Shown here: piece by piece, positions 11,564 to 54,563 of the stretch
How the letters are laid out: every line of letters starts with the position of its first letter
How positions within the stretch are numbered: position 1 is the first letter of the stretch
Source of the DNA: Candidatus Nitronauta litoralis
GTDB lineage: Bacteria > Nitrospinota > Nitrospinia > Nitrospinales > Nitrospinaceae
Length of the DNA: 64,000 bases
Assembly: GCA_015698285.1 (NCBI GenBank)
Contig: CP048685.1
Location: 186,001 to 250,000, forward strand
Direction of reading: 5' to 3'
The notes under the pieces: generated by a model
What the model was told of the DNA's origin: nothing
The model's input: only the letters and a program-made list of their open reading frames with translations
Database searches by the model: none
Program-made: the position numbers and the translations under genes

Positions 11564-11584
11564 GAAAAAAGAATAGGAAATTCA

Positions 11585-11860: not shown

Positions 11861-12074
11861 CCTCTTTCCTGTTTTTCATCACCCACAGGTAAAAATTCAA
11901 GTGCACTATTGGCATGCTCTTCTAAGCGATTGGTTTTTGCATAAGAAGTAACAGCCAAGCTGTTTGATGTGGAATCTTTTTGCCTGCAAAATCCAAAAAA
12001 AACGGAGCAGCCGTTATGAAAGGTCTGTGACGTCGTGCGCATTGTTGTCAATGTGCCCTTTAATGAGGTCAGTT

Positions 12075-19731: not shown

Positions 19732-19750
19732 GAAACTGTTTGAGCTCCTG

Positions 19751-21622: not shown

Positions 21623-21625
21623 AGA

Positions 21626-21925: not shown

Positions 21926-21926
21926 G

Positions 21927-22523: not shown

Positions 22524-22578
22524 TAATTGCCCAACACTCCAAAAAGTTTTTTAACAGCACACCGTTGTTTTCATTTAG

Positions 22579-23073
22579 TCAGGACTTCATCACTTCCGTG
22601 TTGCCGAGAAAGTTTACACGGAACCGGTTCGGTTCCGGATACACCAGAAGATCATCCTTCTCTGCTATGTAATTTCCTCGATCGTAGTCGGCCAGTTCAT
22701 AATGCTCGCGCAGAACCACCGCATCTACCGGGCAGGCTTCCTCGCAATATCCGCAATAGATGCAACGCAGCAGATTGATCTCGTAAGTCTCTGCATAACG
22801 CTCTCCGGCGGAGGTCGGGTTTTTCGGATCGTTTTCAGCAGCCACAACGTGAATGCAGCCAACCGGACAATTCACCGAACACAGGCTGCACCCAATACAG
22901 CGTTCCAACCCGTTTTCGTCGCGGTTTAAAAAATGCCGACCCCGATAACGCGTAGGCATTTCCCGTTTCACTTCCGGATAACAAATGGTGACCGGCTTGG
23001 ACACCATATTCCGGAAAGTAACGCCCAGTCCCTTTAACAGATTCTTGGCACCACTCATCACGGCGTTAATCAT
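22579..23073 (-). CDS. nuoI: NADH-quinone oxidoreductase subunit I
   Basis: TYKY subunit carrying clusters N6a and N6b. Two 4Fe-4S motifs are complete: CIGCSLCSVNCP and CIYCGYCEEACP. The N-terminal amphipathic segment (LLKGLGVTFRNMVSKPVT) and KREMPTRYRGRH are typical. 164 aa. Confidence 0.97.
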   Translation of the reverse strand: MINAVMSGAKNLLKGLGVTFRNMVSKPVTICYPEVKREMPTRYRGRHFLNRDENGLERCIGCSLCSVNCPVGCIHVVAAENDPKNPTSAGERYAETYEINLLRCIYCGYCEEACPVDAVVLREHYELADYDRGNYIAEKDDLLVYPEPNRFRVNFLGNTEVMKS

Positions 23074-23082
23074 ATTGTCACC

Positions 23083-24102: not shown

Positions 24103-24145
24103 TCAACAAAGCTTTCGTAATACAACGGTTTTTAGCAAGACAACT

Positions 24146-24167
24146 CGCCATCCTGACTAGGATGGCG
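24146..24167 (-). other. Perfect 8-bp hairpin between nuoG and nuoH
   Basis: CGCCATCC (24146-24153), six-base loop, GGATGGCG (24160-24167). There is no U-tract after it on the transcribed strand, so it is not a canonical terminator. It could stabilise or define an mRNA end inside the nuo transcript. Confidence 0.6.
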
Positions 24168-24187
24168 CATGCCATTAAATATTCTTT

Positions 24188-26656: not shown

Positions 26657-26661
26657 ATTTT

Positions 26662-31439: not shown

Positions 31440-32786
31440 CTATCCAGGATATTCCAGGTGCATGCGATAGATCAAACCCAGCGGATTATCTTCAGGAACC
31501 TGGGCATTGGGTCGGGCATAGTTAATGACTTCAAACTCGATTGAGTTTTCCCCTTCTTTAAGATGCGGTCCAAGATGCAAAAGGAAGGGGTCGGCAAAAT
31601 CTGCCCCACCAAACTCTTGAGGAAGGGATTTTCCATTGATCGAAATATGGCAGGTGTCGTCTGCTCTTACAAACAGGTCTGCACGATTGACCTCTGTAGC
31701 TTTCCCGTTTGGCAGGTTAAAGTTGAACCGAAAACGATAGCGGCCACCGGTTTTCGCTTCTTCCAAGGTGACCTTATCGCGGAACGCAACCCACTGGGCA
31801 CCCTTGATTCCACGCCATTTTGAATTGAGCTGACAAAGAACCGCAGGAATCCATTCGCTGGCCTGATTATCAAAAACCTCCGTTCCAATGCCACTGGCAA
31901 ACACAGAGGCTTTAGTTTTCTTGGTCGTTCCAATGGTGAGCTGTGTAATCACCGGATGACTTTCCTCCCACATGGCATTGGCCAGGTTCTCGTACTGGTC
32001 AAACAGGGCTCCCCGTTTTCGCACCAGCATCATACTGGGACGCTGATGGCTTTTGCCCAGATAGGGCCCAATGTCAGCTATGATGATTCCCCCGGGGTCG
32101 TGGGCATCCACAGAAATAAACGAATGGGACGGAATGGTTTTATAAGTATGTACTTCCAACGTCCCTTTACCGGGAGCTTTTATTTCATCCAGTTCCTCCT
32201 CAAGTTTCTGAAAAAGAAGCAACGACGTTTTGATTTCATTCAGGAATGTGGCCTTACCCCCAATCTGCCGAGTAATGATCTCCACCACTTCTGAATCCGG
32301 GTCCATAACCAGCAAACGGACCCTGATACCGGCCAGAACCTTTTCCCGTATAAGGTCACGGCTACCAGTAGAGATGGAAAGCAGTGAAGACCCACCAATA
32401 AAAATTTCCTTTTTCACATGACGAAACAAATCTTCAAAATTGTGAGCGTGTGCCAACTCCGATCGATTCTTGTAAATACCACGAATTCCCAGACGCACCG
32501 CATCCGGGTTAACGATCTCCTGCAGAGCCTCCTTATATTCATTAAAAGTCAGCTCACGCAAAAACAATTCGTAACCAAGAGACACCACACCGATCATGGA
32601 AATCAGCAGGGAAAATTCCTTTACCGGGTGTAGCCAGATACTTTCTTTTTCCAGCAACAAGTCTGCGCTAATGTATCCCGCCATCCCCACGCCGAAGATA
32701 ATGAGCGCAAGAAATACCACACGGTCGCGAATCCAGGTCCTAAGGGCCGGGCCTTTTTTGGGCTGCACACCAACAGGTTGAGTCAT
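31440..32786 (-). CDS. Membrane protein with PLD-like domain and C-terminal jelly-roll-like domain
   Basis: 448 aa. Two hydrophobic helices near residues 22-42 and 55-75 anchor it in the membrane. The middle (about 115-270) has the pattern of a phospholipase-D-like fold without HKD motifs: KEIFIGGSSLLSIS followed by IRVRLLVMDPDSEVVE. The C-terminal ~130 residues look like a galactose-binding-type beta sandwich (ADLFVRADDTCHISINGKSL, then LHLGPHLKEGENSIEFEV). No catalytic residues can be assigned, so a sensor or ligand-binding role is more likely than phosphodiesterase activity. Same strand as the vWA genes upstream but 133 AT-rich bases away. Confidence 0.65.
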   Translation of the reverse strand: MTQPVGVQPKKGPALRTWIRDRVVFLALIIFGVGMAGYISADLLLEKESIWLHPVKEFSLLISMIGVVSLGYELFLRELTFNEYKEALQEIVNPDAVRLGIRGIYKNRSELAHAHNFEDLFRHVKKEIFIGGSSLLSISTGSRDLIREKVLAGIRVRLLVMDPDSEVVEIITRQIGGKATFLNEIKTSLLLFQKLEEELDEIKAPGKGTLEVHTYKTIPSHSFISVDAHDPGGIIIADIGPYLGKSHQRPSMMLVRKRGALFDQYENLANAMWEESHPVITQLTIGTTKKTKASVFASGIGTEVFDNQASEWIPAVLCQLNSKWRGIKGAQWVAFRDKVTLEEAKTGGRYRFRFNFNLPNGKATEVNRADLFVRADDTCHISINGKSLPQEFGGADFADPFLLHLGPHLKEGENSIEFEVINYARPNAQVPEDNPLGLIYRMHLEYPG

Positions 32787-32919
32787 ATTTTCAATACTTT
32801 AATGTTAATTCAATTTGGTCCTGTAGGGTACCGGAAACAATCAAAACAAACAAGACGATACTATGAGATACCTATAAGAAAATCATCACTTTATGATGTT
32901 TTTATCTATTTTGAAAAAA

Positions 32920-35217
32920 TCAACTCAAGCCAGATTTCCTTCGAACCCACCATTCGGTCACCAGCAGAGTCAGCAACAACCCGTACGACCACCAGCTATC
33001 CCAAAGGGAAAACATGCGGCTACTGGTTTTAACTTCATAATCCGGGTTGGGAAAAGTGAGCCCCTCAATAAAGCTGCCCGGCTTCAGTTCACGATGCTTT
33101 CCCCCGGAAACCTCTGCCAATGTTTTGAGCAAAACCGGATTGACCTGCGGCCTTTCAAACTCAGTTGTGGGACTGAAAACAGTAAACCGGGCTTCTTCCC
33201 GGGTTACTTCCTCACCATTTTTCAGAGCAACCTCGGCCACATAAAATCCCTCTTCGGGAGGTTCGAACTCAAATCGGCCCTCGCCTAACTCGTCGGTCTT
33301 CAATTCGCGTTTAATCAGTTCTTTATTTTCCGAAATAGACCTTATGGAAATGGTTGCTTTTTTTTCATCAAGTGGGTTGTAGTCCTGGCCCAACGCCTGG
33401 AAATGCACCAGAACTTTTTCTTCTTCCCAATAATGCTCTTTACTTGTTTCAAGTTGTAACGGGTTGGTTTGCGGGTCCCGCGTCATCCAGGCGATCACAT
33501 TTTCCCAGAACTTCTGATAGTAACGGCCGCTGCCCCCCTGCCCGACCCGCAGAAAATTCCAGTTCCACAAGGTGTCGGTCGCAATCACCATACTGCGACC
33601 TTCCCCAAAGCGTCGTGTTGCCAGAACAGGTGAGGGGGTGTCAGATTTTAAAGACTGCGCAGCAAGCACTTGAGCGCCTTCAACCGGAACCAGGCCTGCA
33701 TTGCGCCCGCCGATGGCTGGCATGGACTCCCAGATTTCCCTGTTGCGTGTTTCATCCTTTTCCAGGCTGAGAATGGGATGACGTAAAAGCTCCGGAACAA
33801 TTTTCGCTTTGAAATCGTCGTCGGAAAACCACTTTGCGTTGCGATCCATTTTGATCGGCAAGATCTCCTCAACCGGAGTTCTCATGTACTCACCCGATTG
33901 AAATGAAAGGTCACCGCCTATCATCAGGAAAGCCCCCCCGTGCTCCACAAACTTTTTAATATTACCCAGGTATTTTCGATCGATAAACGGTTTAAAGCGG
34001 AAATTATGAAAGATCACAAGATCAAATGAATCGAGATAGTCAGTGAACAACAGATTGGAAGGAAATGGAATCAGACTGAGTTCCTGGGTTGTCGCCATCA
34101 CATCATCTGTCAACGTTCTTAAAATGAAAAACGACAGCAAGTCCACTTTCGGATTGTTAGCGAGCACCTCCCTTAAAAACCGGGAGTCCCAAGAAGGCCG
34201 ACCATTTAAATGCAATACACGAATCCGGTCCCGCACGACATTGACTTGAAAATGGGTCTGGTTGTTAACCTCTACGGCCTCCCCCGCAAACACCGGCATG
34301 GACAAGGTATAAAAGCGTTTGCCGGTATTTCCCGGTGTAAACTCAAGCTCAACCTGATACCGTTCCTGTTCGGGCTTAATGTTGAGAATACGCGAAGCAT
34401 GGATTTTGTCGCCTTCTTTCAACACCACCGGAACACTGCGAGTGCCCATGTTGCTGGCTGTAATGGTGGCGGTCAGTCTCAAAGGCTGGTGAACGAAACC
34501 AAAATCGCTGGCTTCCAGCTTTGGAATTCCAAGGTCCTTCAACCCCTCTTCACTCCCTGCCATAAAAGTAAAAACAGGCCCATCCAGCCTGCCCGCGAGC
34601 TCAGTCAACCCGGATGAAATTTCGCCCTCTATCTGAGACAGGTCTGCGCCATCAGATAATAGGATGACACCTTGAAGAGATTTGCCATTGTATTTTTTAT
34701 GCAGCTCATTGAGAACGTTTGTGAAATCCGTGTTCAGTCCACGCGCTTTATAACGGGAAAACGATTCATCTAAAGAAACCGGACTGAGCCTGTCCGAGAA
34801 AAAATAAAAATCAACCTGATGCGTTTCTTTCAGTTCTTCAAAGAAACCCGCGCTTCCCTTGAGCGCTTCCTTGACCAGTTCCAGCCGAGGCTCCCCTTGA
34901 GGAAAAGTTTTCACTCCCAGGCTTTTACTGTCATCAATTAATACCGCAACCGTATTGCGCATTGGCAAAACGTGCTTTAACTCCAGTTGAGGCTGCAGGG
35001 TCACGATGAGTAATAGAAGCAATGCGGCAATGCGCAGGCCAAACAAAAAATATTTTTTGGGTCGGGATGGAATATTGGTCAGGCTGAACCAGAAAAACCA
35101 GAGAGTCAGAGGTATCAGAGCTGCGAGAATAAGGATAGCCCAAAGTGCACCATCGCCACCCCAGTGCAATTCCCAGGCATTGTATTCTCCTGTACCCAGC
35201 CAGGAAGGGAGGTTCAC
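32920..35217 (-). CDS. vWA / GATase1-like membrane protein (BatA-type)
   Basis: 765 aa. Two N-terminal helices (ALWAILILAALIPLTLW and YFLFGLRIAALLLLLIV), then a von Willebrand A domain with a DDSKS MIDAS-type motif at LIDDSKSLG, an immunoglobulin-like section, a glutamine-amidotransferase-like fold (about 330-570: VEHGGAFLMIGGDLSFQSG, FGEGRSMVIATDTLWNWN), a beta-rich part and a last helix near the C-terminus. This layout is known next to DUF4159, DUF58 and MoxR genes. Its start overlaps the DUF4159 stop by four bases (ATGA). Likely an envelope protein of unknown function. Confidence 0.8.
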   Translation of the reverse strand: MNLPSWLGTGEYNAWELHWGGDGALWAILILAALIPLTLWFFWFSLTNIPSRPKKYFLFGLRIAALLLLLIVTLQPQLELKHVLPMRNTVAVLIDDSKSLGVKTFPQGEPRLELVKEALKGSAGFFEELKETHQVDFYFFSDRLSPVSLDESFSRYKARGLNTDFTNVLNELHKKYNGKSLQGVILLSDGADLSQIEGEISSGLTELAGRLDGPVFTFMAGSEEGLKDLGIPKLEASDFGFVHQPLRLTATITASNMGTRSVPVVLKEGDKIHASRILNIKPEQERYQVELEFTPGNTGKRFYTLSMPVFAGEAVEVNNQTHFQVNVVRDRIRVLHLNGRPSWDSRFLREVLANNPKVDLLSFFILRTLTDDVMATTQELSLIPFPSNLLFTDYLDSFDLVIFHNFRFKPFIDRKYLGNIKKFVEHGGAFLMIGGDLSFQSGEYMRTPVEEILPIKMDRNAKWFSDDDFKAKIVPELLRHPILSLEKDETRNREIWESMPAIGGRNAGLVPVEGAQVLAAQSLKSDTPSPVLATRRFGEGRSMVIATDTLWNWNFLRVGQGGSGRYYQKFWENVIAWMTRDPQTNPLQLETSKEHYWEEEKVLVHFQALGQDYNPLDEKKATISIRSISENKELIKRELKTDELGEGRFEFEPPEEGFYVAEVALKNGEEVTREEARFTVFSPTTEFERPQVNPVLLKTLAEVSGGKHRELKPGSFIEGLTFPNPDYEVKTSSRMFSLWDSWWSYGLLLTLLVTEWWVRRKSGLS

Positions 35218-36032
35218 CGGGAATTATACCTCCTCAACCTTTCCAGAATTGTTGGAAGGTGCACGAGGTCTTTTTTATAATCCAGGGTAAGGGAATACAT
35301 GATGATATTGACCCCGAGGCGAATACTCTGTGTCCTTTGCTTAGGCCCACTGCCGATCATGTCAAAATTATAATGGCCCAGTTTATTCTTGGACCAGGCT
35401 CCGGCAAGATCATTTCGCGAATAGACGATTACTGTTTTGCCTTTTACTGTAATGCCTTCAAGATAAGGATTAACCTGAACCCGACCTGCCACCTCATTGA
35501 TCAAATAAAAGGACCGGAAAATGGAATGGTCCTGCCCAATTTTCTGAAACGGCGTGTGAGGAAACAGGTCGTTAATCATTTTCCTTACCGAACCGTCAAA
35601 ACCTGAATTTGGGGTCGTAGAATTATCGTCGATCAGTAGAAATCCACCGTAGTTGAGATAATCCCGCAGGGCTTTGATTTCACCTTTTTTAAATGGTTCG
35701 AACCCACCTGTCCCCCCCATATATAGGAAAGGATGATGAAACAGTCGAGGATCGTCGAGCTTAAACTCCAGGGAGTCACGCCGAACTTCTACGGACGTAC
35801 GCTTTGCCACCTGCGCCAGAAGACTTTCGAGGGCCTTGGGCCGGGGTTTAAAATCGCCCCCGCGATACTGGATTTGCGGGATTGCCAGTTTCGAGGAATC
35901 ACCGATCGCAAACACCGGAATTGATGTCAGCAGAACTGCTATAAAAGCTAGCAGAAGGCAACAGGCTATCGCCGGTTGGTGACCTGGCCGGTATAGGAAT
36001 AGATTTCTATTTTCTGTTGTTTTCTGTATCAC
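35214..36032 (-). CDS. DUF4159-domain exported protein
   Basis: About 272 aa when started at GTG 36030-36032, where GGGGAG lies 7 bases upstream; a longer frame to 36077 lacks a site. A signal-anchor (AIACCLLLAFIAVLLTSIPVFA) is followed by the DUF4159 domain: FKLDDPRLFHHPFLYMGG, LRDYLNYGGFLLIDDNS and HSIFRSFYLINE. The fold is class-I-glutaminase-like without the catalytic Cys. It is translationally coupled to the vWA gene. The usual MoxR and DUF58 partners are not adjacent. Confidence 0.85.
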   Translation of the reverse strand: MIQKTTENRNLFLYRPGHQPAIACCLLLAFIAVLLTSIPVFAIGDSSKLAIPQIQYRGGDFKPRPKALESLLAQVAKRTSVEVRRDSLEFKLDDPRLFHHPFLYMGGTGGFEPFKKGEIKALRDYLNYGGFLLIDDNSTTPNSGFDGSVRKMINDLFPHTPFQKIGQDHSIFRSFYLINEVAGRVQVNPYLEGITVKGKTVIVYSRNDLAGAWSKNKLGHYNFDMIGSGPKQRTQSIRLGVNIIMYSLTLDYKKDLVHLPTILERLRRYNSR

Positions 36033-36169
36033 AGTGTTCACTCCCCTTACTACATGATAACAAATCTTGCCTGTCACCGCCTGCCTGCTAAAAAGTTTTG
36101 CTCCGTTCCCAAGCCTGGGTTAGACTGACCCGCAACATCAATGTCTTAACTGCTTTGTTTTTATTACAT

Positions 36170-38037: not shown

Positions 38038-38559
38038 TCAGTCGATCACTTCGACTTTGACCCAGGCGAGACCATTCCTGTAGAACCCCAGCTTTTTTGC
38101 AGCGGCGGCGCTGAGGTCGATCAGCCGTTTACCCGATGACGGGTTTCTGTCGCTCGGGAATGGGCCGCGGTCATTCACTCTGACGTTCAAGGAACGACCG
38201 TTTTCAAGGTTTGTGACACGAACGTTGGTGGGTAACGGCAGGGTTCTATGTGCTGCGGACAACCGGCTCGGGTGAAACGATTCGCCCATGGCTGTGGTGT
38301 TTCCGCCCGGTCTACGATACGTTTCTTCTCCATACCAACTGGCCCAGCCTTCCGCGCTGTAGCCTTCTGCGTTTTCAACCTGCATGGGTGAATACCGGAC
38401 CCCTTTGACCTTGTAGTTCCCGTTCCAGGGACCAGGCTTGGGTCTGGCATCACGCAAGGGTTCTAATTCCGGAGAAGGGCTCAACCAGAAAATAAACAGT
38501 AAGCCACCAAACACGAGCCAGAGCCCAACCCCAATCGAATTGATGATCCGTTCATTCAT
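38038..38559 (-). CDS. rlpA: RlpA-like double-psi beta-barrel protein
   Basis: 173 aa. An N-terminal hydrophobic helix (GLWLVFGGLLFIFWL) anchors it; there is no lipobox. The DPBB domain is complete: ASWYGEETYRRPGGNTTAMGE, AAHRTLPLPTNVRVTNLENG, VRVNDRGPFPSDRNPSSGKRL and DLSAAAAKKLGF. RlpA proteins bind or cleave denuded peptidoglycan glycans. The SPOR domain of classical RlpA is lacking. It starts 24 bases after the stop of the giant CHAT gene on the same strand, so it is probably co-transcribed with it. Confidence 0.88.
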   Translation of the reverse strand: MNERIINSIGVGLWLVFGGLLFIFWLSPSPELEPLRDARPKPGPWNGNYKVKGVRYSPMQVENAEGYSAEGWASWYGEETYRRPGGNTTAMGESFHPSRLSAAHRTLPLPTNVRVTNLENGRSLNVRVNDRGPFPSDRNPSSGKRLIDLSAAAAKKLGFYRNGLAWVKVEVID

Positions 38560-38583: not shown

Positions 38584-41500
38584 TTAGCGGTAATCTCCGG
38601 TCAAAATAAATCCGGCCCAGTAAGAGGGGTGCGGATACAACCGTTTCACCTGCAATTGCGCCTTCCTTAAACTTTCCCCTTTGTTCTCTTTAATATAATT
38701 CCTGTAAAAATGTTTGATGAGAACAGCGGTCGAAATATCACTGACTCGCCAGAGTGACGACACAATAGCATGAGTTCCGGCATAGATAAAAGCCCGGTTG
38801 AGCCCGACCAGTTCATCACCGCCGGTGATTTCTCCAAGACCGGTCTGGCAGGCACTGAGAGTAACGAGGTCCGCCTTGATATCCAATGAGAATACCTCGT
38901 TGACTTCAAAGTTTCCATCAGCCTCATCATCCCGCGCCAGCTTGAGCGAAGAAAACAAAGGATTGACCGGATCAAACTCTCCGTGGGAAGCGATGTGGAT
39001 GATCTGGTAATCCGAGATATTTTTTTGCAACCAGCTTTCACTGGCTTTTTCACGGGTAAGGATGGTCACCTCAGGAAAGTCCCAACGAATTGCATTGGCT
39101 TCCAGCTCTGCCAGTGGCAGATCGTAGTTAAGCGTACCGAGATCAGGATTGCCCATAGCCAATACTTTGATTGGACCTTCATGTTTCTGTTTGCGCTTGA
39201 ACGTGTATTCCAAAACGGACGCACTGGGCGAAAAGAACAATGGATGTTTTTCGATTAAATACGACTCCCCATCATACAAGGACGAGAAAGAAAGATAGTG
39301 GAGGTGGGAATGCGGAACGATTCCTACCACCCTGGTTCCAGCAAGATAGGGCAGCACCGGGGTAACAACAAGCTTGTATAAACTTTTGGACTGTTCTTCC
39401 AGCGGAGCCACATTTTGCATACGATTGCGGTAATCCGTGATGGCTTCAACCAGTTCTATTTCTTTGATTGGAGTACGCACCACCTTGATGCCTTTGGTAG
39501 TGATCACCCATGCGACCAATTCACGTTCGGTGACCAGGTACTCGACCAGGGACACATCTGGAGCCAACATGGAAGTCAATTTCTCCAGTGTGATCGACTC
39601 CACAGTAACGAAGTTTGAAATTTGCGGACTCTTCTCTTTCACCTCAATTAAAAGGTCCTGATACCGTGTCCGGGCAGCCACAAGTTTAGTCTGTGCTTTT
39701 TTGACTTCTTCCTCCCCTTCGGTATTGGCCAATTCCTCTTCTGCCTGACGGATCACCTGTTTCTGCCCAGTAAGGGAATCGTACATCTTCTGCCCGACAT
39801 CATCCTTGAGACTCATCTTCTGGTTTCCAAGGAGATCAATAAAACTGCGCGCTTTGGCTCTTTCCGCATATTCAAATGAAGCCTGGGTTTGCCCGGCATC
39901 CAGCAGCAGCAGGATGAGTTCCTTATAGATATCCTGTTTGTCTGTGAGGAAGCCGTTCTGAAATTCTTCAACCTTGATGGAGGCGCGCATGCTGTCGACC
40001 ACATCCACGCCCTGTTTGTAAGCAGCAATGGCCTCAGCTTGCTTTCCAGCTTCCTTCAGGCAAGCCCCCTGCCCTCTCAACGCCCGCCATAAAACTTCCT
40101 TGATATTGTAGCGTTTGGCAAGCTGTGCGGTTTCCTTATAAGTACCAATGGCGTTCTGACACTGTTTGCGCTCGCGGGCCAGATTGCCAAGCTCCAGTTT
40201 GGCTTTTATCAGGTTGGTGTTATTTCCGATCTCGCTACTCAAGGCGATGGCCTTCTGGATGTGGCCTTCTGCTTCATCCAGTTTTTTAAGACGCAGATAA
40301 CTGATGCCAAGGTTTCGATGCGTATAACCCTGACCCCACTTCGATTTTAATTTCTCGTCACGTTTCAACGCCTCGTTAAACAACTCAATCGACTTTTCAT
40401 ATTTTTTATCCTTGCGGTAGACCAGCCCCATATTGTTATAGGCCGATGCGACGTCAAGATAAGCTTTCAGGTCTTCCGCCATTTCCCGGCTCTTGTCGAG
40501 ATTCGACAGGGCGCGTGTCGAATCGTTGAGGGTCCAGTAGATCAGGCCCAACGTGTTGTAAACCCAGATCTGCTGATGGCGGTTGTTTATTTTTTCGGCA
40601 ACCTCCAAAGCCTGTTTTTGTAAACGGAAGGCGTTTTGGTAATTCCCCTGAAACCACTGCGTATTGCCCTGGTAAAGGTAGGATTTGGAAAGTTGGAGAG
40701 GCAGGTCTTTTTCCTGGGCCAATGTTTGTGCTTTAACATATAGCGCCGTGGCATCATCGAACCGGCTCTGCTTCTCCGCGACCTGTCCCATTTCCAACCA
40801 GGACTCCGCTGTCTGCTCGGGCACGTCCAGTTCCTGAAACAGGGTATTGGCGGCTGTAAAAAATTCTTCTGCTTTCGGGTAATTATTCAAACGTAACAGG
40901 TAGATGCGGCCTATGCGACGCAATTCCCGGCCACGATTGAGGTCTTCCCCCATCTCTTCATTCAGGCGGATGGATGCGCTGAACGCCTTCAGGGCATCGT
41001 CATAATCCAAGGCATTCTCTTCTACGATCCCAAGCGTGCTGTAACTTTCCGCCAGCTTGTCGAGAATTTCATACTCCTCATAAAACTTGAGGGCTTTGGT
41101 CAGGTTTTCAACAGAAGGCGCAAAATCTTCATCACGGGAATACAGGATTCCCAGAAAAAAGTGGGCTTCGGCTACCTGTTCCGGATCTTCCGCTTTTTCA
41201 GCAAGCGCGAGAACCTGTTTCTGGTAGTGGACACCTTTTTTATAGTCTCCCAGGTTATAAGCCGCCTGCGCCAGCAATTTATTGAGTTGTCCGGCCTGGC
41301 TCTGGTCTTCCAGAAAGTCGATCAACACCAGGGCTTTTTCAAACCGGCTGATTGCTGCCAGCCAGTTTTTATCCTTGAATGCGCCTACACCGGCATCCAC
41401 GTTTTGTTTATACCGCCCTTCGGCAAACTCATTCTTTTCCTTTTCACTCATTCCCGGAAACCCGTAATAACGGTAGGTCGCCCAGTCCGCGGAACCTGGA

Positions 41501-44500
41501 GAGGATTTGGCCAAAGCAAGTTGTGCCTGACGCAGGGATTCTGCTGGATTACCTTTCCTGAACGTTTCAAAAAACGCTGCAAGAAAAGCCGCGTGACGTT
41601 TTGGGTCCACAACCCCCTGGTGCAGCAATACCCCGGGATAACCAGCGTAGGTCAGCGAATGAATCAGAGGAGCGGTTGGGGAAACTGAAGTTTCAGGTGA
41701 AAAACGGAAATCAATTTCATTCAATGCTATAAAATTCGATTCCACCGATTGACTTAACAATTGTTCAAACTGCAAACGTTCAAAATGGCGAACGCGCCGC
41801 GTCAGGCTGATATAGGACTGATCCAGATCCAGTCCTGCAAGATATGCAGGGCTGTCGATTGCCACCACGCCAAAATGGCGAAATCGTTTGGAATATTGCT
41901 CAACGCTGCCATCGTCTTTCAGCAGGTTTTCAGCAGAAACAAAACGTTCACGAATGCCATCAAAGCCATCCATCTCCACAGCAAGCAGACGCGAGTTATA
42001 AAGGTTCTTCGTGGTTTCCGAAAGCGCAAACTGCCCCAAAGATGTTTGATAAGATAGTTTAACCTTTTGGATGAGAGGCTCTCCCTCCAGAGGAAGGGCC
42101 GCCCAGGGGAGGAACTCAAGAGGTCCACCAGCCACCAGGACAAGTGAATTCGCATCTTTCAATGCTGAGGCAACAGGAGTGAGGAGCACTTTGGACAATA
42201 GTAAAATATCCTTTTTTCCAGGAACCTCTTTTTTTCTCCCGATCCTTTCAAGTGCAGACTTTAAGTTTGCATCAACCTTAATCTTGCTGCCCTTCACCAT
42301 TTTGCCATCAAGCCACCACAATAATATTCCATCACCTACCCAGTCGTACTTGACCAATACAGTGCCCGGCCGAAGCATCCCCTGAATGGAGTCGACCTCC
42401 GGTACTTCGGATAACACCAGAGCCCGCAATCCGGGATCTTCTTCAGCAATCACCCCTTCAACGAAATCGATGTACCCGGAGAGAAGGCCTTCCGTCTCGG
42501 CCTGCAAGGCCTCAGCATCCAGGTTTGTATCCTCACGCAGCTTTTTATAGTCGTGGGCAAACCCCTGAACCTCTTCGAACAACGCCTGTCGGGTCTCTCC
42601 TTTAAAATTCAGAGGAAGTTCTCCCAGGCGCGCCTGCATGGTTTTTTGCACAAGCGACTCTGAAGCATTCAACGCTTCATTGTATTCACGCCGATCAAAG
42701 TGAGATGCCGCCAGTTGATGGTATAAATCCTCAATCATGGAAAGGTGAGCAGGTCCACGGGACACACCAAACGGAAGCTGGGACAACGCTGCATCGGCCT
42801 CTTTTAAAAGAGCGAACCGGGCATCTCCCGAGGATTCCAGCGATTCCATAAACCGGAGCTGCCATTCAGAAAACACCAGTGCTCCTGAATCTTCGGGGGT
42901 CCCGGTTTCTTTTTCAGCCTTATCTTTTCCGGAAATGTACTGCGCCAGTTCCAGGTTCTTATTTAGCGCTGCCAGCAGATTCGATTTTTTTGAATCAGGC
43001 AAAGCCCCGGCCGCATCAATGGCTTTTTTAAAATACATTGCCGATTTTGAATTACTGCTCGCTACTGCATCCAGACTCTGCAAAGAAGCCTTGACTGCCT
43101 GCAATGGATCCTTGGCCTTGCCTGCCGGTATGTCGGACTGATGAAAAGCCTGGTAATGATACAAAATACCGAGGTCGTTTTTGATATATACGCGGTACTC
43201 CGGATTTGCCAGTGATTCAACCTCTTTATCCAGAGCACGCTCGGCGCTTTCCAGAATCCCGGTGATCTCCCCGATTTCATTATTTATTTTGGCGAAGGGT
43301 TCGGTACGGGTTTGCAAAATCAAGGATCGACCCAGGTTAGATGCGTTGACTCCAATTCCCTGACGGTTGTTGATCAAACGGCTGATGTCAAAGGATTCCT
43401 TGAAAAAGGGTTTACTGGCTTCAATATGACCCGCTTTGAAATGATAGTGGCCAATCTGATTGAGCAGCAGGGCTTTTTCCAAAAGAAGCGGAATATGTTT
43501 TTTTGGATCGAGTTCTTTCGGGATTAGCGACAGTTTCTTTTCAAAATAGTCGATTGCCTTCTGATAGTCGCCAAAATCCCCGAAAATTTTTCCTACATAA
43601 TGGAAAATAAGTTTCTGTTCCCCCTTCTTGTCAAATCCCAACGCTGCCTGTGAAGCACTTTCGTCAATACCTGCTTCAAAACTGACATCCACGAGGCCAC
43701 CACCGGAACTTTTTTTAACTTTGCCCCGCTGAACAACTCCGTTCTCTTCCAGTTGATCGATTGCCTTGAAGTAATGACCCAAAGCCTTGTTCAAAGAATT
43801 CGAATCGCGTCCCGGGTTTGTCGCATTGAGGGCATAGAGATTGTTGGCGATGTTGCGCAGGGTACGCGACATAGAAACCGTGTTGCCGGTTTTTTGATTC
43901 AGGGCCAAGGCACGCGAAAAATGTTCCACCGCCTCGGCATGTGAGCCCAGTACCTGATACGCCAGCGCAATCCTGTCATTGAGCTCCGCCATGCGTTTGG
44001 GTTTATCGAGTTTGGTGACCAATTCCAGAGCTTTTTTGTACAACTTTACTGAATGCTCGGTGTGTTCCGATTTGAAAGCACTCTCCGCGAATCTCTGGTA
44101 GTAGATCGCTTCACGCTCGGCGTTGAGGAAATCATGACCGCTGTTTAAACGCTGGTCATACACCAGGTAGGCTGAAAAATAGTTGGAGAGCAGATAGTTC
44201 CCGTGGCCGAGGTTCAGGAGCAGATTAGCTTCGTTTCGAGGTTGACTGATCGGGTCATTCAACACCAGCGCATCCTGATACTCCTGGACCGTTCGTTCCA
44301 GATATCCGGAGTCTGGTTTGGCGCGCTCCTTCTGTTCGAATACCCAACCAAGGGTCTGATGATAATAAACATTATTGGAATTCAACCGCATTGCTTTACG
44401 AATCCACTGTTCAGCGGTATCCAAATCAGGTGGAGAAAGATAAGTGTGAGCTAATCCCAAAGCGTACTGATCTTCAGCCGCAGGATTCTCCACCGCAATA

Positions 44501-46653
44501 CGTTTATTATAAAAATCGATTGCGTGCTGGATTCGTTTCAAAGAAGCTTCGGCCTGGACATAACCGCGATGCGCCTCCACCGTTGTGGGCTCAAAATCTA
44601 TCAGCTTGAGAAAAGACTTGCGTGCCAGTTTCATTTCGCCAACACGCAATTCCCATTCACCTTTTTCGACCGACTTATGGATGAACCCCCTCCGGGCTTT
44701 TTCCAGGGCATCGTCCAGGTTGCCCGGGTCACTTTCCACCGCCTGGTACTGCACAAGGCTCATTTCAAAATTTTCTTCTTCCGCATAAATTCCAGCCAAC
44801 TGAAACCGCGCCGCGTTTCTGGCTTCCGGTGCCTTATCGAATTTTTCGATTGTTCTTTTGTAAGATTCCTTGGCCAGCATGTTTTCTCCGGCCTCGTAAT
44901 ACAATTCACCCACACGGTTTTGCACCGCACCGGCCAGTCTTGGCAAGTCTTCGTATTTTTCAATGAGGGCCGTGAGGCTGGCTATCTTTTTTGAAAGGGT
45001 TGGATGTTGCTCGTGAATTTCCAGAATTTCAGCGATTGCTTTCCCCGTCCAGCTTTCCACATCGTAATAATCACGCACCACATTGACGAAGGTCAGCACC
45101 AGATTTTTCTGGTCGCCAACGGTTTTGTAAACCTTGCTCTGGGAAAAAGCCGCCTCGGCTGAAAGATGACGGTAAGGAGGATAAGTTTTGATGACATGCT
45201 GGTAATGGTTGAGCGCTTCAGAAAATTCCTCGAGTTCATAATGAAGGTGCCCTTTTTCCACCCAGGCCCGGGCGGCAACTGCCGGCAATGCTTCATTATT
45301 TTGTATGATCGCCTTTAACTCTTCCAGCCCTTTCCTAAGACGGTTTCGAAAACTGGCTTGTCCCCCTTCACGGGATTTCTTCACATCGACCAGTAGAAGT
45401 TCTATTTCCGCAAGGTTCCTGTATCGTGGATTTTCAGCATAATCAGTAATGATCTGCCTGAATATATCTGCCGAGTGGTCCAGCTGCCCCAGAGTTTGAT
45501 AACCCTTTGCCTGTCGATAAAGGATGCGCGCGAGAGACTGGTCTCCAGCAAAATCATTGATCAAAGCGTTATCTGCCAAAAGACATTTATAAACGTTATC
45601 TCCATAATCTTCACAAAGGTCTTCGACGGTTTGCAGTTCGTTCCCATATTTTTCACTCTTGGGAAGCAAACCATCCGGAGCCAGTCCCCAGATATCAGTT
45701 CCCTTTTCATTGGTTGAAGTGAAGTAAACTTGTGTTCCTACCGCAACCGGCTGCAGGTCGTAGGTTGTGCTGTCTGTGAGTTGGCGCAACTTACCGGGCT
45801 GCCCGTTTAAGAACTCGACACTCCACAGGTTTGGCTGATCGTCGATAGTGATGCGGTTATCGCCATTGGTATCATCCTGATACCGGGAAAAGTAAACCCG
45901 TTTGCCATCAGGCGAGACCCGGGGAGAAACATCCATAAATTCACCGGAGGTCAACTGAGCCAGCTTTCCAGTTTTCAAATTCTGTGCCCAAAGCCCCGAT
46001 TCTTTGCCACGCGCTACCAGGACCATAAACAACCCGTCACCAGAAAGCGCAGGGGAAACCCCTTCAATTTTGGAAACGCGCTGGCGATTCTTACCGCCAA
46101 TGTCCATGGAATAAATATACGGTCGGCGGGTTTCAGGATCCTGGGAGGTAAAAAACAACTGCTTTTGATCTGCAGACCAGGCGGGATCTGCTTCAGGATG
46201 AGCTGCATCGGTTATCAGCTTTTCTTTTTCTTCCGGCTTTTTATCAGGATCGTCCTCTTCCGGATCAGGCTTCAAACCCTCCAGAGACAGGAGATAAATG
46301 TCACCTTTGGGGTCGGTTCGGTTGGAGACGAACGCCAGCATTTTTCCATCAGGACTGATCGCGGGAGAGTTTTCTTCACCCGAATGCCAGGTGAGACGCT
46401 GATCCGGATCCTGCACTCCCGGTCCCAGATGCTTGAGCCACAGGTCCAGGTTTCCGGAACGATCGGAGACGTAAACAAGGGTATCGCCATTTGCGGAAAC
46501 CGTCGGGGCAAAATCCTCACCTGGGTTGGATGTCACCTGACGCGGCTTGTTGAACTGAGAATCAGCCCACGCAGGCACAACGGCTGCTCCTACTTGCGAA
46601 AACAAAATCGTGGCTCCAAATAAAGCCGACATCCATCGCCCGCTACAGGCCAT
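38584..46653 (-). CDS. Giant exported TolB-propeller / TPR / tandem CHAT protein
   Basis: 2689 aa in one uninterrupted frame. Start ATG 46651-46653 follows GGGAG; an earlier TTG is rejected. Order: signal peptide (cleavage likely after AWA, about residue 30); six PD40/TolB-like propeller repeats (35-340, for example APTVSANGDTLVYVSDRSG, SPAISPDGKMLAFVSNRTD); TPR array (355-1330); a degenerate CHAT domain (1420-1735) lacking the His and Cys; second TPR array (1748-2273); a coiled coil (2288-2338); and a C-terminal CHAT (caspase-HetF-associated) peptidase domain (2350-2689) with His2557 in IASHGEF and Cys2602 in LSACQTGLG. By family, a cysteine peptidase; export to the periplasm is inferred from the signal peptide. 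Substrate unknown. Confidence 0.88.
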   Translation of the reverse strand: MACSGRWMSALFGATILFSQVGAAVVPAWADSQFNKPRQVTSNPGEDFAPTVSANGDTLVYVSDRSGNLDLWLKHLGPGVQDPDQRLTWHSGEENSPAISPDGKMLAFVSNRTDPKGDIYLLSLEGLKPDPEEDDPDKKPEEKEKLITDAAHPEADPAWSADQKQLFFTSQDPETRRPYIYSMDIGGKNRQRVSKIEGVSPALSGDGLFMVLVARGKESGLWAQNLKTGKLAQLTSGEFMDVSPRVSPDGKRVYFSRYQDDTNGDNRITIDDQPNLWSVEFLNGQPGKLRQLTDSTTYDLQPVAVGTQVYFTSTNEKGTDIWGLAPDGLLPKSEKYGNELQTVEDLCEDYGDNVYKCLLADNALINDFAGDQSLARILYRQAKGYQTLGQLDHSADIFRQIITDYAENPRYRNLAEIELLLVDVKKSREGGQASFRNRLRKGLEELKAIIQNNEALPAVAARAWVEKGHLHYELEEFSEALNHYQHVIKTYPPYRHLSAEAAFSQSKVYKTVGDQKNLVLTFVNVVRDYYDVESWTGKAIAEILEIHEQHPTLSKKIASLTALIEKYEDLPRLAGAVQNRVGELYYEAGENMLAKESYKRTIEKFDKAPEARNAARFQLAGIYAEEENFEMSLVQYQAVESDPGNLDDALEKARRGFIHKSVEKGEWELRVGEMKLARKSFLKLIDFEPTTVEAHRGYVQAEASLKRIQHAIDFYNKRIAVENPAAEDQYALGLAHTYLSPPDLDTAEQWIRKAMRLNSNNVYYHQTLGWVFEQKERAKPDSGYLERTVQEYQDALVLNDPISQPRNEANLLLNLGHGNYLLSNYFSAYLVYDQRLNSGHDFLNAEREAIYYQRFAESAFKSEHTEHSVKLYKKALELVTKLDKPKRMAELNDRIALAYQVLGSHAEAVEHFSRALALNQKTGNTVSMSRTLRNIANNLYALNATNPGRDSNSLNKALGHYFKAIDQLEENGVVQRGKVKKSSGGGLVDVSFEAGIDESASQAALGFDKKGEQKLIFHYVGKIFGDFGDYQKAIDYFEKKLSLIPKELDPKKHIPLLLEKALLLNQIGHYHFKAGHIEASKPFFKESFDISRLINNRQGIGVNASNLGRSLILQTRTEPFAKINNEIGEITGILESAERALDKEVESLANPEYRVYIKNDLGILYHYQAFHQSDIPAGKAKDPLQAVKASLQSLDAVASSNSKSAMYFKKAIDAAGALPDSKKSNLLAALNKNLELAQYISGKDKAEKETGTPEDSGALVFSEWQLRFMESLESSGDARFALLKEADAALSQLPFGVSRGPAHLSMIEDLYHQLAASHFDRREYNEALNASESLVQKTMQARLGELPLNFKGETRQALFEEVQGFAHDYKKLREDTNLDAEALQAETEGLLSGYIDFVEGVIAEEDPGLRALVLSEVPEVDSIQGMLRPGTVLVKYDWVGDGILLWWLDGKMVKGSKIKVDANLKSALERIGRKKEVPGKKDILLLSKVLLTPVASALKDANSLVLVAGGPLEFLPWAALPLEGEPLIQKVKLSYQTSLGQFALSETTKNLYNSRLLAVEMDGFDGIRERFVSAENLLKDDGSVEQYSKRFRHFGVVAIDSPAYLAGLDLDQSYISLTRRVRHFERLQFEQLLSQSVESNFIALNEIDFRFSPETSVSPTAPLIHSLTYAGYPGVLLHQGVVDPKRHAAFLAAFFETFRKGNPAESLRQAQLALAKSSPGSADWATYRYYGFPGMSEKEKNEFAEGRYKQNVDAGVGAFKDKNWLAAISRFEKALVLIDFLEDQSQAGQLNKLLAQAAYNLGDYKKGVHYQKQVLALAEKAEDPEQVAEAHFFLGILYSRDEDFAPSVENLTKALKFYEEYEILDKLAESYSTLGIVEENALDYDDALKAFSASIRLNEEMGEDLNRGRELRRIGRIYLLRLNNYPKAEEFFTAANTLFQELDVPEQTAESWLEMGQVAEKQSRFDDATALYVKAQTLAQEKDLPLQLSKSYLYQGNTQWFQGNYQNAFRLQKQALEVAEKINNRHQQIWVYNTLGLIYWTLNDSTRALSNLDKSREMAEDLKAYLDVASAYNNMGLVYRKDKKYEKSIELFNEALKRDEKLKSKWGQGYTHRNLGISYLRLKKLDEAEGHIQKAIALSSEIGNNTNLIKAKLELGNLARERKQCQNAIGTYKETAQLAKRYNIKEVLWRALRGQGACLKEAGKQAEAIAAYKQGVDVVDSMRASIKVEEFQNGFLTDKQDIYKELILLLLDAGQTQASFEYAERAKARSFIDLLGNQKMSLKDDVGQKMYDSLTGQKQVIRQAEEELANTEGEEEVKKAQTKLVAARTRYQDLLIEVKEKSPQISNFVTVESITLEKLTSMLAPDVSLVEYLVTERELVAWVITTKGIKVVRTPIKEIELVEAITDYRNRMQNVAPLEEQSKSLYKLVVTPVLPYLAGTRVVGIVPHSHLHYLSFSSLYDGESYLIEKHPLFFSPSASVLEYTFKRKQKHEGPIKVLAMGNPDLGTLNYDLPLAELEANAIRWDFPEVTILTREKASESWLQKNISDYQIIHIASHGEFDPVNPLFSSLKLARDDEADGNFEVNEVFSLDIKADLVTLSACQTGLGEITGGDELVGLNRAFIYAGTHAIVSSLWRVSDISTAVLIKHFYRNYIKENKGESLRKAQLQVKRLYPHPSYWAGFILTGDYR

Positions 46654-46927: not shown

Positions 46928-47860
46928 TCAGCGTTGAGCCGCCCTGATGTTTTCGCGAAACGTTTTAAAAATATTTTTTACAGGAGGGATGAGTTTTTCT
47001 TTTAGCTCCTCAGGCACCCAGTTGATTTTTTCCGTTGGCCATTTTTCGAACTTGAAAATATCTAGTCCATGCTCTAGATAGGGTGCCCGCAATCCCTCCT
47101 CAAAACCATATATCAGGGCATTATTCAAAACTGTGCTGTAAACCTTCCGAATTTCTTCCGCTTCATTCAAACCCGACATAAAGCGCTTCATTGCGTCATC
47201 AATGATGGGTTCAGCGTGTTCCAGAAATTCCTCGGAAAAAATTTCCTTAAGCGTCAGGTAGGTGATGATCACATCCTGCAGCATGTACTTGATTTCCTGA
47301 GGATCTTCAAGAGTCAGCCCTTTATCGTAATCCAGGTTCTGCTTGAGCTCGCGGACGAGACGGATAGCGTCGTAAATAATCGACTGTTCCCACGACACAG
47401 CGTTCCAGGAAATGATCGGCCGGAGCCAGCGGATAGTTCCGGTCGAGTCTTCCAGATGGATTGTGATGTTAGGCATTTCCCGGTTTGAAAACGGAAGCTC
47501 CCCTCCCCACATTTTAAGATCGAGGTTCAGTCCATGTGGCTGGAATGCTCTGGCCATAGTGCTGGTATAAATACCAACAAATTTTTCCATGTTGCGCCGG
47601 TAGCTCATTGTGGGATTGATAGGCAGGTTGACCATACAATAGTATCGCCAGATACGACGCCTGGATTTCCCGTTTGGCTCTGCAATGAGATACGTCCCAC
47701 CCCATATTCCGGAAGTTATGGGGATATCCTTACCGAATCCTTCAGACAGGTTGCGAGATACCTCCGCCGCCACGTTCTGGTAAAGTTCATTCAGATGGAA
47801 AAGGTTGGTAGCTTTATCTTCATAAAACACTGGACCAGTGGTGTAGGGACCGTAATTCAT
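46928..47860 (-). CDS. Hypothetical protein, 310 aa
   Basis: No family recognised. No signal peptide; no membrane segment. The N-terminal part is beta-rich with many aromatic residues (GIWGGTYLIAEPNGKSRRR, WRYYCMVNLPINPTMSYRRN), and the C-terminal half is helical and acidic. It reads toward the giant CHAT gene, 274 bases upstream of it; a small GCTG/CAGC hairpin follows the stop codon. It is divergent from nuoN. The 274-base gap between the two genes holds nothing else I can name. Confidence 0.65.
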   Translation of the reverse strand: MNYGPYTTGPVFYEDKATNLFHLNELYQNVAAEVSRNLSEGFGKDIPITSGIWGGTYLIAEPNGKSRRRIWRYYCMVNLPINPTMSYRRNMEKFVGIYTSTMARAFQPHGLNLDLKMWGGELPFSNREMPNITIHLEDSTGTIRWLRPIISWNAVSWEQSIIYDAIRLVRELKQNLDYDKGLTLEDPQEIKYMLQDVIITYLTLKEIFSEEFLEHAEPIIDDAMKRFMSGLNEAEEIRKVYSTVLNNALIYGFEEGLRAPYLEHGLDIFKFEKWPTEKINWVPEELKEKLIPPVKNIFKTFRENIRAAQR

Positions 47861-48087: not shown

Positions 48088-49614
48088 ATGGAATTCGAGA
48101 TAAATTACGCCGACATGAACTGGGTTGCTCTCCTCCCGGAGATCACCATTCTCACCACGGCCTTGTATTTACTGCTCATGGGGTTACGTAAGTCTTTTGA
48201 TAACAATAGGTTTTTGGCTCGGGCCTCAGCCGCAGGTATCAGCTTCGCCCTGCTTCTGACCCTCATGCTCTGGGGAAATGCCCCTTCAGCATCGGACGAA
48301 TCCTCCCCTGGAATCTTCAGTAATGCGCTAATCTATGACCGGTTTGCCCTAAGCTTTAATGTGATTTTCCTGATCATGTCGCTGTTCGCCCTTTTGGCAT
48401 CCTATAAATACCCAAAGGATGACCACGGGAATAAAGCAGAATATTTCTCACTTTTGCTATTGACCGTGGCGGGCATGATGTTCCTTGCCAAGGCGGGCAA
48501 CCTCATCACAGCCTTTGTTGCCCTTGAAGTCTTTTCGATTTCCCTTTATATCCTTTGCGGTTTCTCAGCGAAACACGGAACGGGATCGGAAACTCCCACC
48601 TCTGTGGAGGAACTTCCCTGGGAAACACTCGGATCACAGGAATCGACTGTCAAATATCTACTGAGTGGAGCATTTGCCTCCGCCATCCTGGTTTATGGAA
48701 TGGCACTCACTTATGCCGGGACCGGAACCACCGAAATCCGCACCATTGCGCAATTGCTTCAGGAAAACCCTTACACAGAAAATAAATTGTTGTACATCGG
48801 CATGGCGCTGATGTTTGCAGGGCTGGGCTTCAAGGTCTCCCTGGTCCCATTTCACGCCTGGACCCCAGACGTTTACCAGGGAGCCCCGACACCTGTGACG
48901 GGCTTTATGTCGGTTGCGACCAAGGCCGCGGCCTTTGCATTGATTGCACGGATTTTTTACGTCGCCCTGCCATCGCTCGAAGAAATCTGGATGCCCTTCT
49001 TTTTTGGTATTTCAGCTCTGACTATGCTGGTTGGCAACACCGCTGCAATTTTTCAGGACAACATCAAACGCATGCTGGCGTATTCGGGCATCGCCCACGC
49101 CGGTTACCTGTTGATGGGAATTATCGCCAACAGTCAGGACGGAATGGCGAGCCTCATCTTTTACCTGGCCGTTTACCTGTTCATGAATATCGGTGCCTTT
49201 GCAGTGGTGTTTCTTCTCGAGGGTGAAGGTGAAGGAGGCAGTTCCATTTACCGTTTCCAGGGACTGGCCAAGCGTAAACCCAAACTGGCCGCCGCGATGG
49301 CTCTGTTCATGCTGTCTCTGGCCGGGTTTCCTCCGACGGCCGGATTCTTTGGGAAACTATATCTGTTCTGGGCCGCTATCAATTCCGGATATGTATTGCT
49401 TGCAGTGCTTGCTGTAGGAGCCAGCATGATCGCTGTATATTTTTATCTGCGCATCATTGTCATGATGTACTTCCGCGATGAAGAGGAAGAAATCAACATC
49501 GACATGAATCGCGGCATGGCCACTATCGTGACCGTCAGCACCGTCGTCATCGTCGTCGTTGGACTCTATCCCTCAGGCCTGATGCAGCTTGCTCTCGCTT
49601 CAATTCCCTTCTAG
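48088..49614 (+). CDS. nuoN: NADH-quinone oxidoreductase subunit N, detached from nuo operon
   Basis: 508 aa, about 14 helices. Antiporter-like subunit of complex I. Diagnostic regions are AFVALEVFSISLYILCGF (Glu in helix 5), GLGFKVSLVPFHAWTPDVYQGAPTP, NIKRMLAYSGIAHAGYLLMG and LFMLSLAGFPPTAGFFGKLYL. It lies about 17 kb from nuoA and on the opposite strand, between an unknown gene and dtd. No second nuoN is seen near nuoM, so this is presumably the working copy. Confidence 0.96.
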   Translation: MEFEINYADMNWVALLPEITILTTALYLLLMGLRKSFDNNRFLARASAAGISFALLLTLMLWGNAPSASDESSPGIFSNALIYDRFALSFNVIFLIMSLFALLASYKYPKDDHGNKAEYFSLLLLTVAGMMFLAKAGNLITAFVALEVFSISLYILCGFSAKHGTGSETPTSVEELPWETLGSQESTVKYLLSGAFASAILVYGMALTYAGTGTTEIRTIAQLLQENPYTENKLLYIGMALMFAGLGFKVSLVPFHAWTPDVYQGAPTPVTGFMSVATKAAAFALIARIFYVALPSLEEIWMPFFFGISALTMLVGNTAAIFQDNIKRMLAYSGIAHAGYLLMGIIANSQDGMASLIFYLAVYLFMNIGAFAVVFLLEGEGEGGSSIYRFQGLAKRKPKLAAAMALFMLSLAGFPPTAGFFGKLYLFWAAINSGYVLLAVLAVGASMIAVYFYLRIIVMMYFRDEEEEINIDMNRGMATIVTVSTVVIVVVGLYPSGLMQLALASIPF

Positions 49615-53385: not shown

Positions 53386-53420
53386 TAACCCATTTTAATG
53401 CGATATTAATCGTGCAGGTT

Positions 53421-53449
53421 TTGTTTCATTCCGGAAAGTTTCATATAAT
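53421..53449 (+). promoter_or_regulatory. Sigma70-type promoter of the heme-FGE gene
   Basis: TTGTTT (53421-53426), 17 bases, perfect TATAAT (53444-53449). Transcription would start near 53456, which rules out any translation start before that base and favours the ATGs at 53481-53493. Confidence 0.55.
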
Positions 53450-53489
53450 GTTGTTATGTAGAATCGTACCATTACACGAAATGACTGAC

Positions 53490-54563
53490 ATGATGCGTTA
53501 TCACTTTTCAATAGCCAAGAAACTCTTAAAAGGAATCAGCGCGACGCTGCTGTTGATTTCCTGGACCACTCCTGCCCTGTCCTTCGAAGGGTTCGAACAT
53601 CCGACAAACAGCAAGCTCAAATGTCGAACCGCCTGCCATCAGCCTGAAAACCTGAAGCAATCCCGTCAGGATAAATTCAATAAACCCGAATGTCGCGAAT
53701 GCCACAGCGGTGTCGAAAACAAGGTTAAGCTATTCAGCACTCCGCGCCCCCGAATTCAACTAGAGGACACAAAGCCTAACCGCAGGCAGCTTTCGTTTCG
53801 TCCTCCTGTTCGGGCATCACAACCGGCTGCCGGAATGCAAAAAACCGTTCCTGCCTCCACCCCGAAAGGCATGGCTTATGTTGAGGCCGGGGAGTTCATC
53901 ATGGGATCTAACGAGCGCTGGGATGACGAGTCCCCTGAGCATATCAATGAAACCGGTGCATTCTACATCGACATTAACGAGGTGACCAATGCAGACTACA
54001 AAAAATTTGTTGATGCCACCAAACGTGAAGCACCGCACCATTGGCCGGAGGGAAAGCTGGCACCAGGCAAGGAAAATCATCCTGTAATATATGTCAACTG
54101 GTTCGATGCCAACGATTACTGTAAGTGGAATGGGAAACGGCTTCCAACAGAACCCGAATGGGAAAAGGCGGCGCGGGGTGAAGATGGAAGAATCTATCCC
54201 TGGGGTAATGTCTGGTCGCTCGATAAATCAAACAACCCGTACAAAGGCTCAACAGGTACAGAGCCGGTTGCTTCCTATAAAAATGGAGTGAGCCCTTACG
54301 GCTTGTTCGATATGAGTGGTAACGTGTGGGAATGGGTCGATGCTTTTTACCTGCCTCATCCAGGCAACAACATCCCCAAGCCGGAATACGGACGCGATAA
54401 ACGCGTATTAAAAGGTGGATCGTGGTTCGATTGCCTGTCTTATGGATGCGGGTTGAGCGCACCCACTTTCAATCGTTCTTTTTTCAATCCTGAAGTAAAA
54501 AATAACAGTTTCGGGTTTCGTTGTGCGCTATCGGCGGCACCCGTAAAAAAAGCAGAAAAATAA
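53490..54563 (+). CDS. Exported dihaem-like / formylglycine-generating-enzyme-family fusion protein
   Basis: About 357 aa. Start taken at ATG 53490, the first of two adjacent ATGs; 53481 is also possible. Signal peptide to about residue 34 (LLLISWTTPALS). Two haem-type motifs follow: CRTACH (45-50, spacing CX3CH) and CRECH (68-72, CX2CH). After a Pro-rich linker comes the SUMF1/FGE fold (about 130-350): MAYVEAGEFIMGSNERW, INEVTNADYKKFVDA, WFDANDYCKWNGKRLPTEPE, GNVWEWVDAFYL. Cys315 and Cys320 in SWFDCLSYGCG have the CX4C spacing of the copper-binding pair of true FGEs. Role unknown. Confidence 0.8.
   Translation: MMRYHFSIAKKLLKGISATLLLISWTTPALSFEGFEHPTNSKLKCRTACHQPENLKQSRQDKFNKPECRECHSGVENKVKLFSTPRPRIQLEDTKPNRRQLSFRPPVRASQPAAGMQKTVPASTPKGMAYVEAGEFIMGSNERWDDESPEHINETGAFYIDINEVTNADYKKFVDATKREAPHHWPEGKLAPGKENHPVIYVNWFDANDYCKWNGKRLPTEPEWEKAARGEDGRIYPWGNVWSLDKSNNPYKGSTGTEPVASYKNGVSPYGLFDMSGNVWEWVDAFYLPHPGNNIPKPEYGRDKRVLKGGSWFDCLSYGCGLSAPTFNRSFFNPEVKNNSFGFRCALSAAPVKKAEK

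Follow-up and report, generated by a model that had tools for sequence, protein, structure and literature searches.

The window analysed here (a 64,000-nucleotide stretch of Candidatus Nitronauta litoralis DNA) encodes a giant protein of 2,689 residues that we read, with a probability of roughly 0.5 for the reading as a whole, as a periplasmic scaffold that ends in a regulated CHAT protease and serves an AsmA-type lipid bridge. The sequence-level evidence comprises the architecture of the protein, its export signals, an intact catalytic dyad, operon linkage in other lineages and co-inheritance with the same partner genes. In some lineages the giant appears to be lipid-anchored, probably in the outer membrane.

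The gene is a single frame of 2,689 codons on the minus strand, running from an ATG at 46653 to a stop at 38584 with no internal stops, and a GGGAGA ribosome-binding-like site lies 5' of the ATG; the plus strand across 38584..46653 is full of stops. A chance frame is excluded because orthologues are 44-75% identical from end to end. An earlier sequence-only reading had described one unbroken frame of about 8 kb, leaving out the strand, with a PD40 propeller, two TPR arrays and a C-terminal CHAT domain, and Pfam matches were recovered for all of these. That reading counted a single CHAT domain, but the match to PF12770 (CHAT; 246.7 bits against a cut-off of 24) falls in two stretches, and the second CHAT region is central and degenerate. 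The features of the gene, all on the minus strand, are as follows.

38584..46653, minus strand: gene for the giant PD40-TPR-CHAT-TPR-CHAT protein, 2,689 aa (frame, Pfam, orthologues).
46564..46653, minus strand: signal peptide, residues 1-30, cleavage likely after A-W-A (hydropathy; equivalent N-termini in 27/27 orthologues).
45679..46545, minus strand: PD40 / TolB-like beta-propeller, residues ~37-325 (Pfam PD40 E 1.5e-34; TolB equivalog 97.8 bits, under the 343 cut-off).
42934..45561, minus strand: first TPR array, residues ~365-1240 (Pfam TPR families).
41434..42381, minus strand: central pseudo-CHAT without the catalytic His and Cys, residues ~1425-1740 (Pfam CHAT pieces, AlphaFold2 model, dyad absent in 27/27).
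39949..41421, minus strand: second TPR array, residues ~1745-2235 (Pfam TPR_12, TPR_MalT and others).
38593..39393, minus strand: C-terminal CHAT domain, residues 2421-2687 (Pfam E 4.5e-73; model pLDDT 78, Craspase and separase matches).
38983..38985, minus strand: codon of predicted catalytic His2557, in IASHGEF (invariant; aligned with the Craspase CHAT active-site motif).
38848..38850, minus strand: codon of predicted catalytic Cys2602, in SACQTG (invariant; aligned with the same motif).

Hydropathy places Arg6, a hydrophobic stretch at residues 8-27 and A-W-A followed by D at 28-31 at the N-terminus, and the sequence, MACSGRWMSALFGATILFSQVGAAVVPAWA and then DSQ, looks by eye like a normal signal peptide. 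The signal peptide claimed by the sequence-only reading looks real when judged by eye, hydropathy and conservation, as all 27 full-length Nitrospinota orthologues have one. An export signal is recognisable in nearly every member of the family with a visible N-terminus, that of L088 being short, and two distant members, L149 and L150, carry lipoboxes (LSAC, LVSC). These signals, and the envelope-type operon found in other lineages, make the predicted envelope location of the giant, which had also been proposed from the letters, well supported. The accompanying idea that an exported CHAT protein departs from a cytoplasmic norm did not hold up: about 18 of 20 ordinary TPR-CHAT proteins (790-1,200 aa), taken from the same Nitrospinota and related-phyla searches, had a signal peptide or lipoprotein-type N-terminus by a crude, uncalibrated hydropathy test, one having no visible N-terminus and one a questionable signal. 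These proteins share the export-type N-terminus and TPR-CHAT body of the giant, but they are less than half its length and align only with its C-terminal part, so they lack the propeller and the central CHAT. Export by itself is ordinary for TPR-CHAT proteins of these phyla, and the new result is the set of partner genes.

The predicted catalytic residues of the C-terminal CHAT domain, which the sequence-only reading had noted as being in place, are strongly conserved. His2557 and Cys2602 are invariant in 27/27 full-length Nitrospinota orthologues, and a wider set of 25 shows no variation in the dyad among the 24 members with a complete region (L090 ends before it); homologues that had lost the pair were to have counted against a protease, and the pair is kept throughout. 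Sequence alignment places both residues on the active-site motif of the Craspase CHAT, and in a Csx29, mutating both counterparts (H615A/C658A) abolishes cleavage (PMC10028731). The sequence thus favours the C-terminal CHAT being a protease, a conclusion we hold with a moderate degree of confidence.

A genome scan with the CHAT model found additional pieces at 41467-41880 and 42031-42198, covering residues ~1486-1729, where the catalytic-pair positions are never His and Cys in any of the 27 orthologues and the dyad is also absent in the wider set. The central CHAT sequence gave no match to the PDB and was placed by structure comparison alone: an AlphaFold2 model of residues 1255-1760 has a pLDDT of 92, and its best PDB matches are the Craspase TPR-CHAT protein (Csx29; E 8e-13) and separases. 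From the model we are confident in assigning this region a CHAT/separase fold that lacks the catalytic residues. The C-terminal model is of moderate confidence (pLDDT 78) and matches the same families, Craspase and separase, so that the structural comparison suggested by the sequence-only reading came out positively for both CHAT regions. Outside Nitrospinota the central copy has decayed further: Pfam detects a second CHAT stretch in L148 and none in L150 or L155.

The CHAT domains of the same envelope module might instead serve as scaffolds that bind proteins, with no proteolytic role. Loss of the central dyad in every member indicates that the CHAT fold can persist without catalysis, and DdvA, a transmembrane anti-sigma factor, is a structural neighbour of both CHAT models. 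We consider this explanation unlikely, though it has real weight, as His2557, Cys2602 and their surrounding motif are invariant across lineages whose proteins have only 25-33% overall identity to that of the window, a pattern that is hard to explain without catalysis.

The search for homologues that the sequence-only reading had recommended found the giant in 38 of 77 Nitrospinota genomes (some as contig-edge fragments) at 44-75%, mostly 44-55%, identity, and in at least three lineages outside Nitrospinota. Among named relatives in the genome collection are MAGs carrying the labels Nitrospina sp., Nitrospinaceae or Nitrospinota, and five members whose best segments reach 31-39% identity, namely those of a Deltaproteobacteria bacterium (L087), Nitrospirae (L088, L089), nNGHbin12 (L090) and RI_26 (L092); over their whole length, other-lineage members are only 25-33% identical to the window protein. 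A profile search revealed further frames of 2,700-3,000 residues in at least 8 genomes of the phylum of L087 (297 genomes) and one more frame, split, in the phylum of L088. One entire genus (g2) within the family to which the window belongs lacks the giant, as do several small genomes.

In the other lineages the giant is encoded within a recurrent operon. Neighbour clustering and tblastn showed that the gene immediately before the giant, in the same orientation, encodes a DUF1318 lipoprotein in 12 of the 13 loci whose upstream DNA is visible; L148 departs from this, and L152 lies at the start of a contig. The lipoprotein is about 195 aa long, and its C-terminal half is DUF1318 (PF07027, the YdbL family, above cut-off). 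Upstream of the DUF1318 gene, seven loci encode an AsmA/DUF748-like protein of 1,175-1,473 aa, recognised by N-terminal Pfam matches in L087, L092 (DUF748 only), L149 and L150 and by alignment in L153, L154 and L155. Genes for an SH3 protein and an M48 peptidase are found in six loci, and the fuller loci have the order AsmA-like, DUF1318, giant, SH3 and M48 peptidase on one strand; in L150 and L155 gene ends meet or share a few bases. The L148 locus (5707-13776) holds a full-length giant with two Pfam CHAT stretches and no adjacent DUF1318 or AsmA gene. In the sequence-only reading, the same neighbours in many genomes were to count for a conserved system; the DUF1318/AsmA operon of other lineages shows such neighbours, and in Nitrospinota the module genes are unlinked.

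In Nitrospinota the AsmA-like, DUF1318 and SH3 genes are present but dispersed, although SH3 and M48 are still neighbours in 3/3 loci checked. The genome from which the window was taken encodes them at the following positions on contig C1.

C1:1092662-1093243: DUF1318 lipoprotein (PF07027 above cut-off).
~C1:1946524-1950606: AsmA-like protein (AsmA and DUF748 matches).
C1:1729638-1730087 and C1:3136380-3136871: SH3 copies.

Despite this dispersal, the giant and its partners are inherited together. Across the 77 genomes, with presence thresholds set by hand at strong E-values (AsmA <1e-15, SH3 <1e-28) and counts affected by MAG incompleteness, the numbers with both, giant only, partner only and neither were 36/2/1/38 for AsmA (within-genus p 1e-6), 33/5/2/37 for SH3 (p 3e-4) and 32/6/5/34 for DUF1318 (p 2e-3). 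Testing within genera removes shared ancestry above the genus level, and the same test found no association of the giant with TamB (p 0.67) or with a multicopper oxidase from the window (p 0.64). The sole AsmA-positive, giant-negative genome (G002) is cut off by a contig end 161 bases away from the adjacent gene, at the point expected for the start of the giant. G023, which is 94% complete, retains the giant's locus intact on both sides with the giant missing, an empty site, and it also has no AsmA-like or DUF1318 gene and only a weak generic SH3 hit (1.9e-4). We conclude that the giant is probably linked in function with the AsmA-like and DUF1318 genes.

Joint loss in streamlined lineages could produce such a pattern as a by-product of genome reduction, with no shared function. 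Many giant-negative genomes are small, and TamB is likewise confined overall to giant-positive genomes (11/38 versus 0/39), a between-genus restriction which implies that general envelope or genome reduction explains part of the raw co-occurrence. As an account of the whole module it is improbable, because gene order is conserved in other lineages, with genes abutting, and because within-genus co-loss is significant for the three partners and not for TamB or the multicopper oxidase.

The Nitrospinota neighbourhood of the giant is conserved in its own way. Flanking genes for NuoN, Dtd, TerB, FG-GAP, an aminotransferase, DUF4159 and a GATase1-like protein keep their order, and at 31440-36077 (minus strand) the genes for a DUF4159 protein, a 765-aa GATase1-like membrane protein and a 448-aa protein are syntenic with the giant across the order. 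These immediate neighbours were considered and rejected as partners: they have no obvious relation to it, and most stay in G023 without the giant. A gene for a ~411-aa protein with no Pfam match immediately precedes the giant, in the same orientation, in L062 (7614-8849), L063 (7606-8841) and nine more Nitrospinota loci, and it is retained in G023, where the giant is gone. A protoglobin-PsiE fusion gene adjoins the giant on the opposite strand in L017, L018, L019, L059, L075 and L077. In the window itself, an RlpA-like DPBB protein gene (38038-38559, minus strand) follows the giant after 24 bases in the same orientation, an adjacency found only there and in L054, of the same genus (two loci), and this gene too was rejected as a partner; upstream of the giant, a 310-aa protein (46928-47860, minus strand) has no Pfam or NCBIfam matches and has relatives only in L054, L078 and G002. 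Elsewhere in the window, a gene for a NuoN-type proton-channel subunit (48088-49614, plus strand) is about 20 kb from the complex I cluster (18211-27915, minus strand), with a second homologue at 40-42% identity in 5/6 genomes probed, and an FGE-sulfatase-type protein (53412-54563, plus strand) has Cys-rich, heme-motif-like segments (CRTACHQ, CRECHSG) near its N-terminus.

Among characterised proteins, one of the closest to the giant is Csx29 of the type III-E CRISPR effector Craspase, which also has TPR repeats ahead of CHAT, has an active-site His and Cys that align with those of the giant, and is among the best structural matches for both CHAT regions. The Csx29 dyad sits in the CHAT2 subdomain and is allosterically controlled by the TPR region (PMC10028731). 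The giant differs in being about four times larger, exported, equipped with an N-terminal propeller and two separate TPR-CHAT halves, and without a Cas7-11 partner; no Cas7-11 or CRISPR genes were found among the window's adjacent genes or conserved in orthologous loci. Separases likewise have a CHAT/caspase-like fold behind a long helical array, as the structural matches indicate. They also have a dead protease-like domain. The giant, unlike separase, is bacterial and exported, and about 800 residues, including a further TPR array, separate its dead CHAT from the intact one.

Because CHAT domains are common in defence systems, the giant might be an immune or conflict effector (Craspase-like, gasdermin-type or part of a ternary conflict system) that is incidentally exported. 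PADLOC yielded weak matches only, to a generic TPR model and to BovA (23 bits), and the Csx29 family model scored 47.9 bits against a cut-off of 300, so a CRISPR or defence assignment was rejected. Synteny conserved across the order, adjacent genes that (as far as examined) include no defence, CRISPR or toxin genes, and export away from intracellular targets make an immune role quite improbable. A TolB-like accessory of the Tol-Pal system, with the CHAT domains secondary, is more improbable still, since TolB models give 28-98 bits on the propeller, under the TolB cut-off of 343, and the conserved neighbourhoods hold no Tol or Pal gene; the PD40 propeller from which the sequence-only reading had argued for an envelope complex is therefore real, but the TolB argument built on it is weak.

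The closest known parallel to the gene content of the module is the E. coli YdbH-YnbE-YdbL system, where consecutive genes (ydbH-ynbE-ydbL) specify an AsmA-like protein, then a small lipoprotein, then a DUF1318 protein, and YdbL is homologous to the L088 DUF1318 lipoprotein (E 2e-10). YdbH, YhdP and TamB are redundant, together essential, proposed phospholipid transporters (PMC8593681), and YnbE works with YdbH (PMC11784454; PMC12977461). The giant's AsmA-like partner belongs to another subfamily, however, and was rejected as a YdbH (no PF11739 match; no hhalign match, probability 0.1). The DUF1318 of the giant's module is part of a longer lipoprotein, and the module lacks YnbE, with no gene for a YnbE-type small lipoprotein between the AsmA-like and DUF1318 genes in L150 and L155, where these genes abut and the giant comes next. 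It adds the giant CHAT protein and, in the fuller loci, SH3 and M48. By analogy of gene content, the giant's module may work like YdbH-YnbE-YdbL, and it does not match that system in every feature tested: a DUF1318 protein and an AsmA-superfamily partner are there, a YdbH-family protein and YnbE are not.

In the reading we prefer, the giant would work in an envelope module together with an AsmA/DUF748-like protein, a lipoprotein of the DUF1318 (YdbL) family and an M48 metallopeptidase with its paired SH3 protein. We infer lipid transport, physical contacts, and proteolysis with its substrate and trigger along the following lines. The AsmA-like protein would form a lipid bridge between the two membranes, and the DUF1318 lipoprotein, with the TPR arrays and propeller of the giant, would dock or gate the end of the bridge at the outer membrane, in the role that YnbE has in the E. 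coli system. The C-terminal CHAT, possibly restrained by the pseudo-CHAT and TPR arrays as in Csx29, would cleave an envelope protein upon disturbance of the bridge or membrane, and the M48 peptidase would clear misassembled outer-membrane protein. Points against this reading are the unlinked module genes of Nitrospinota, the L148 giant without an adjacent DUF1318 gene, an AsmA-like protein that is not detectably YdbH, and a C-terminal model of moderate confidence.

We found no papers joining CHAT proteins with AsmA or DUF1318 in the open literature searched, an absence that is not proof. Tentatively, the module may be an undescribed envelope machine of several lineages, in which a giant separase-like protease, with dead and live CHAT halves in the periplasm, would control or police an AsmA-type bridge alongside an M48 peptidase. 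Recent papers describe the passage of phospholipids across the periplasm, and the partners required by AsmA-type bridges, as an open question (PMC8593681; PMC12977461). A giant that is co-inherited with an AsmA-type bridge and has an intact caspase/separase-type active site is a testable candidate for such a partner and, if the reading is true, would place this class of protease in outer-membrane maintenance.
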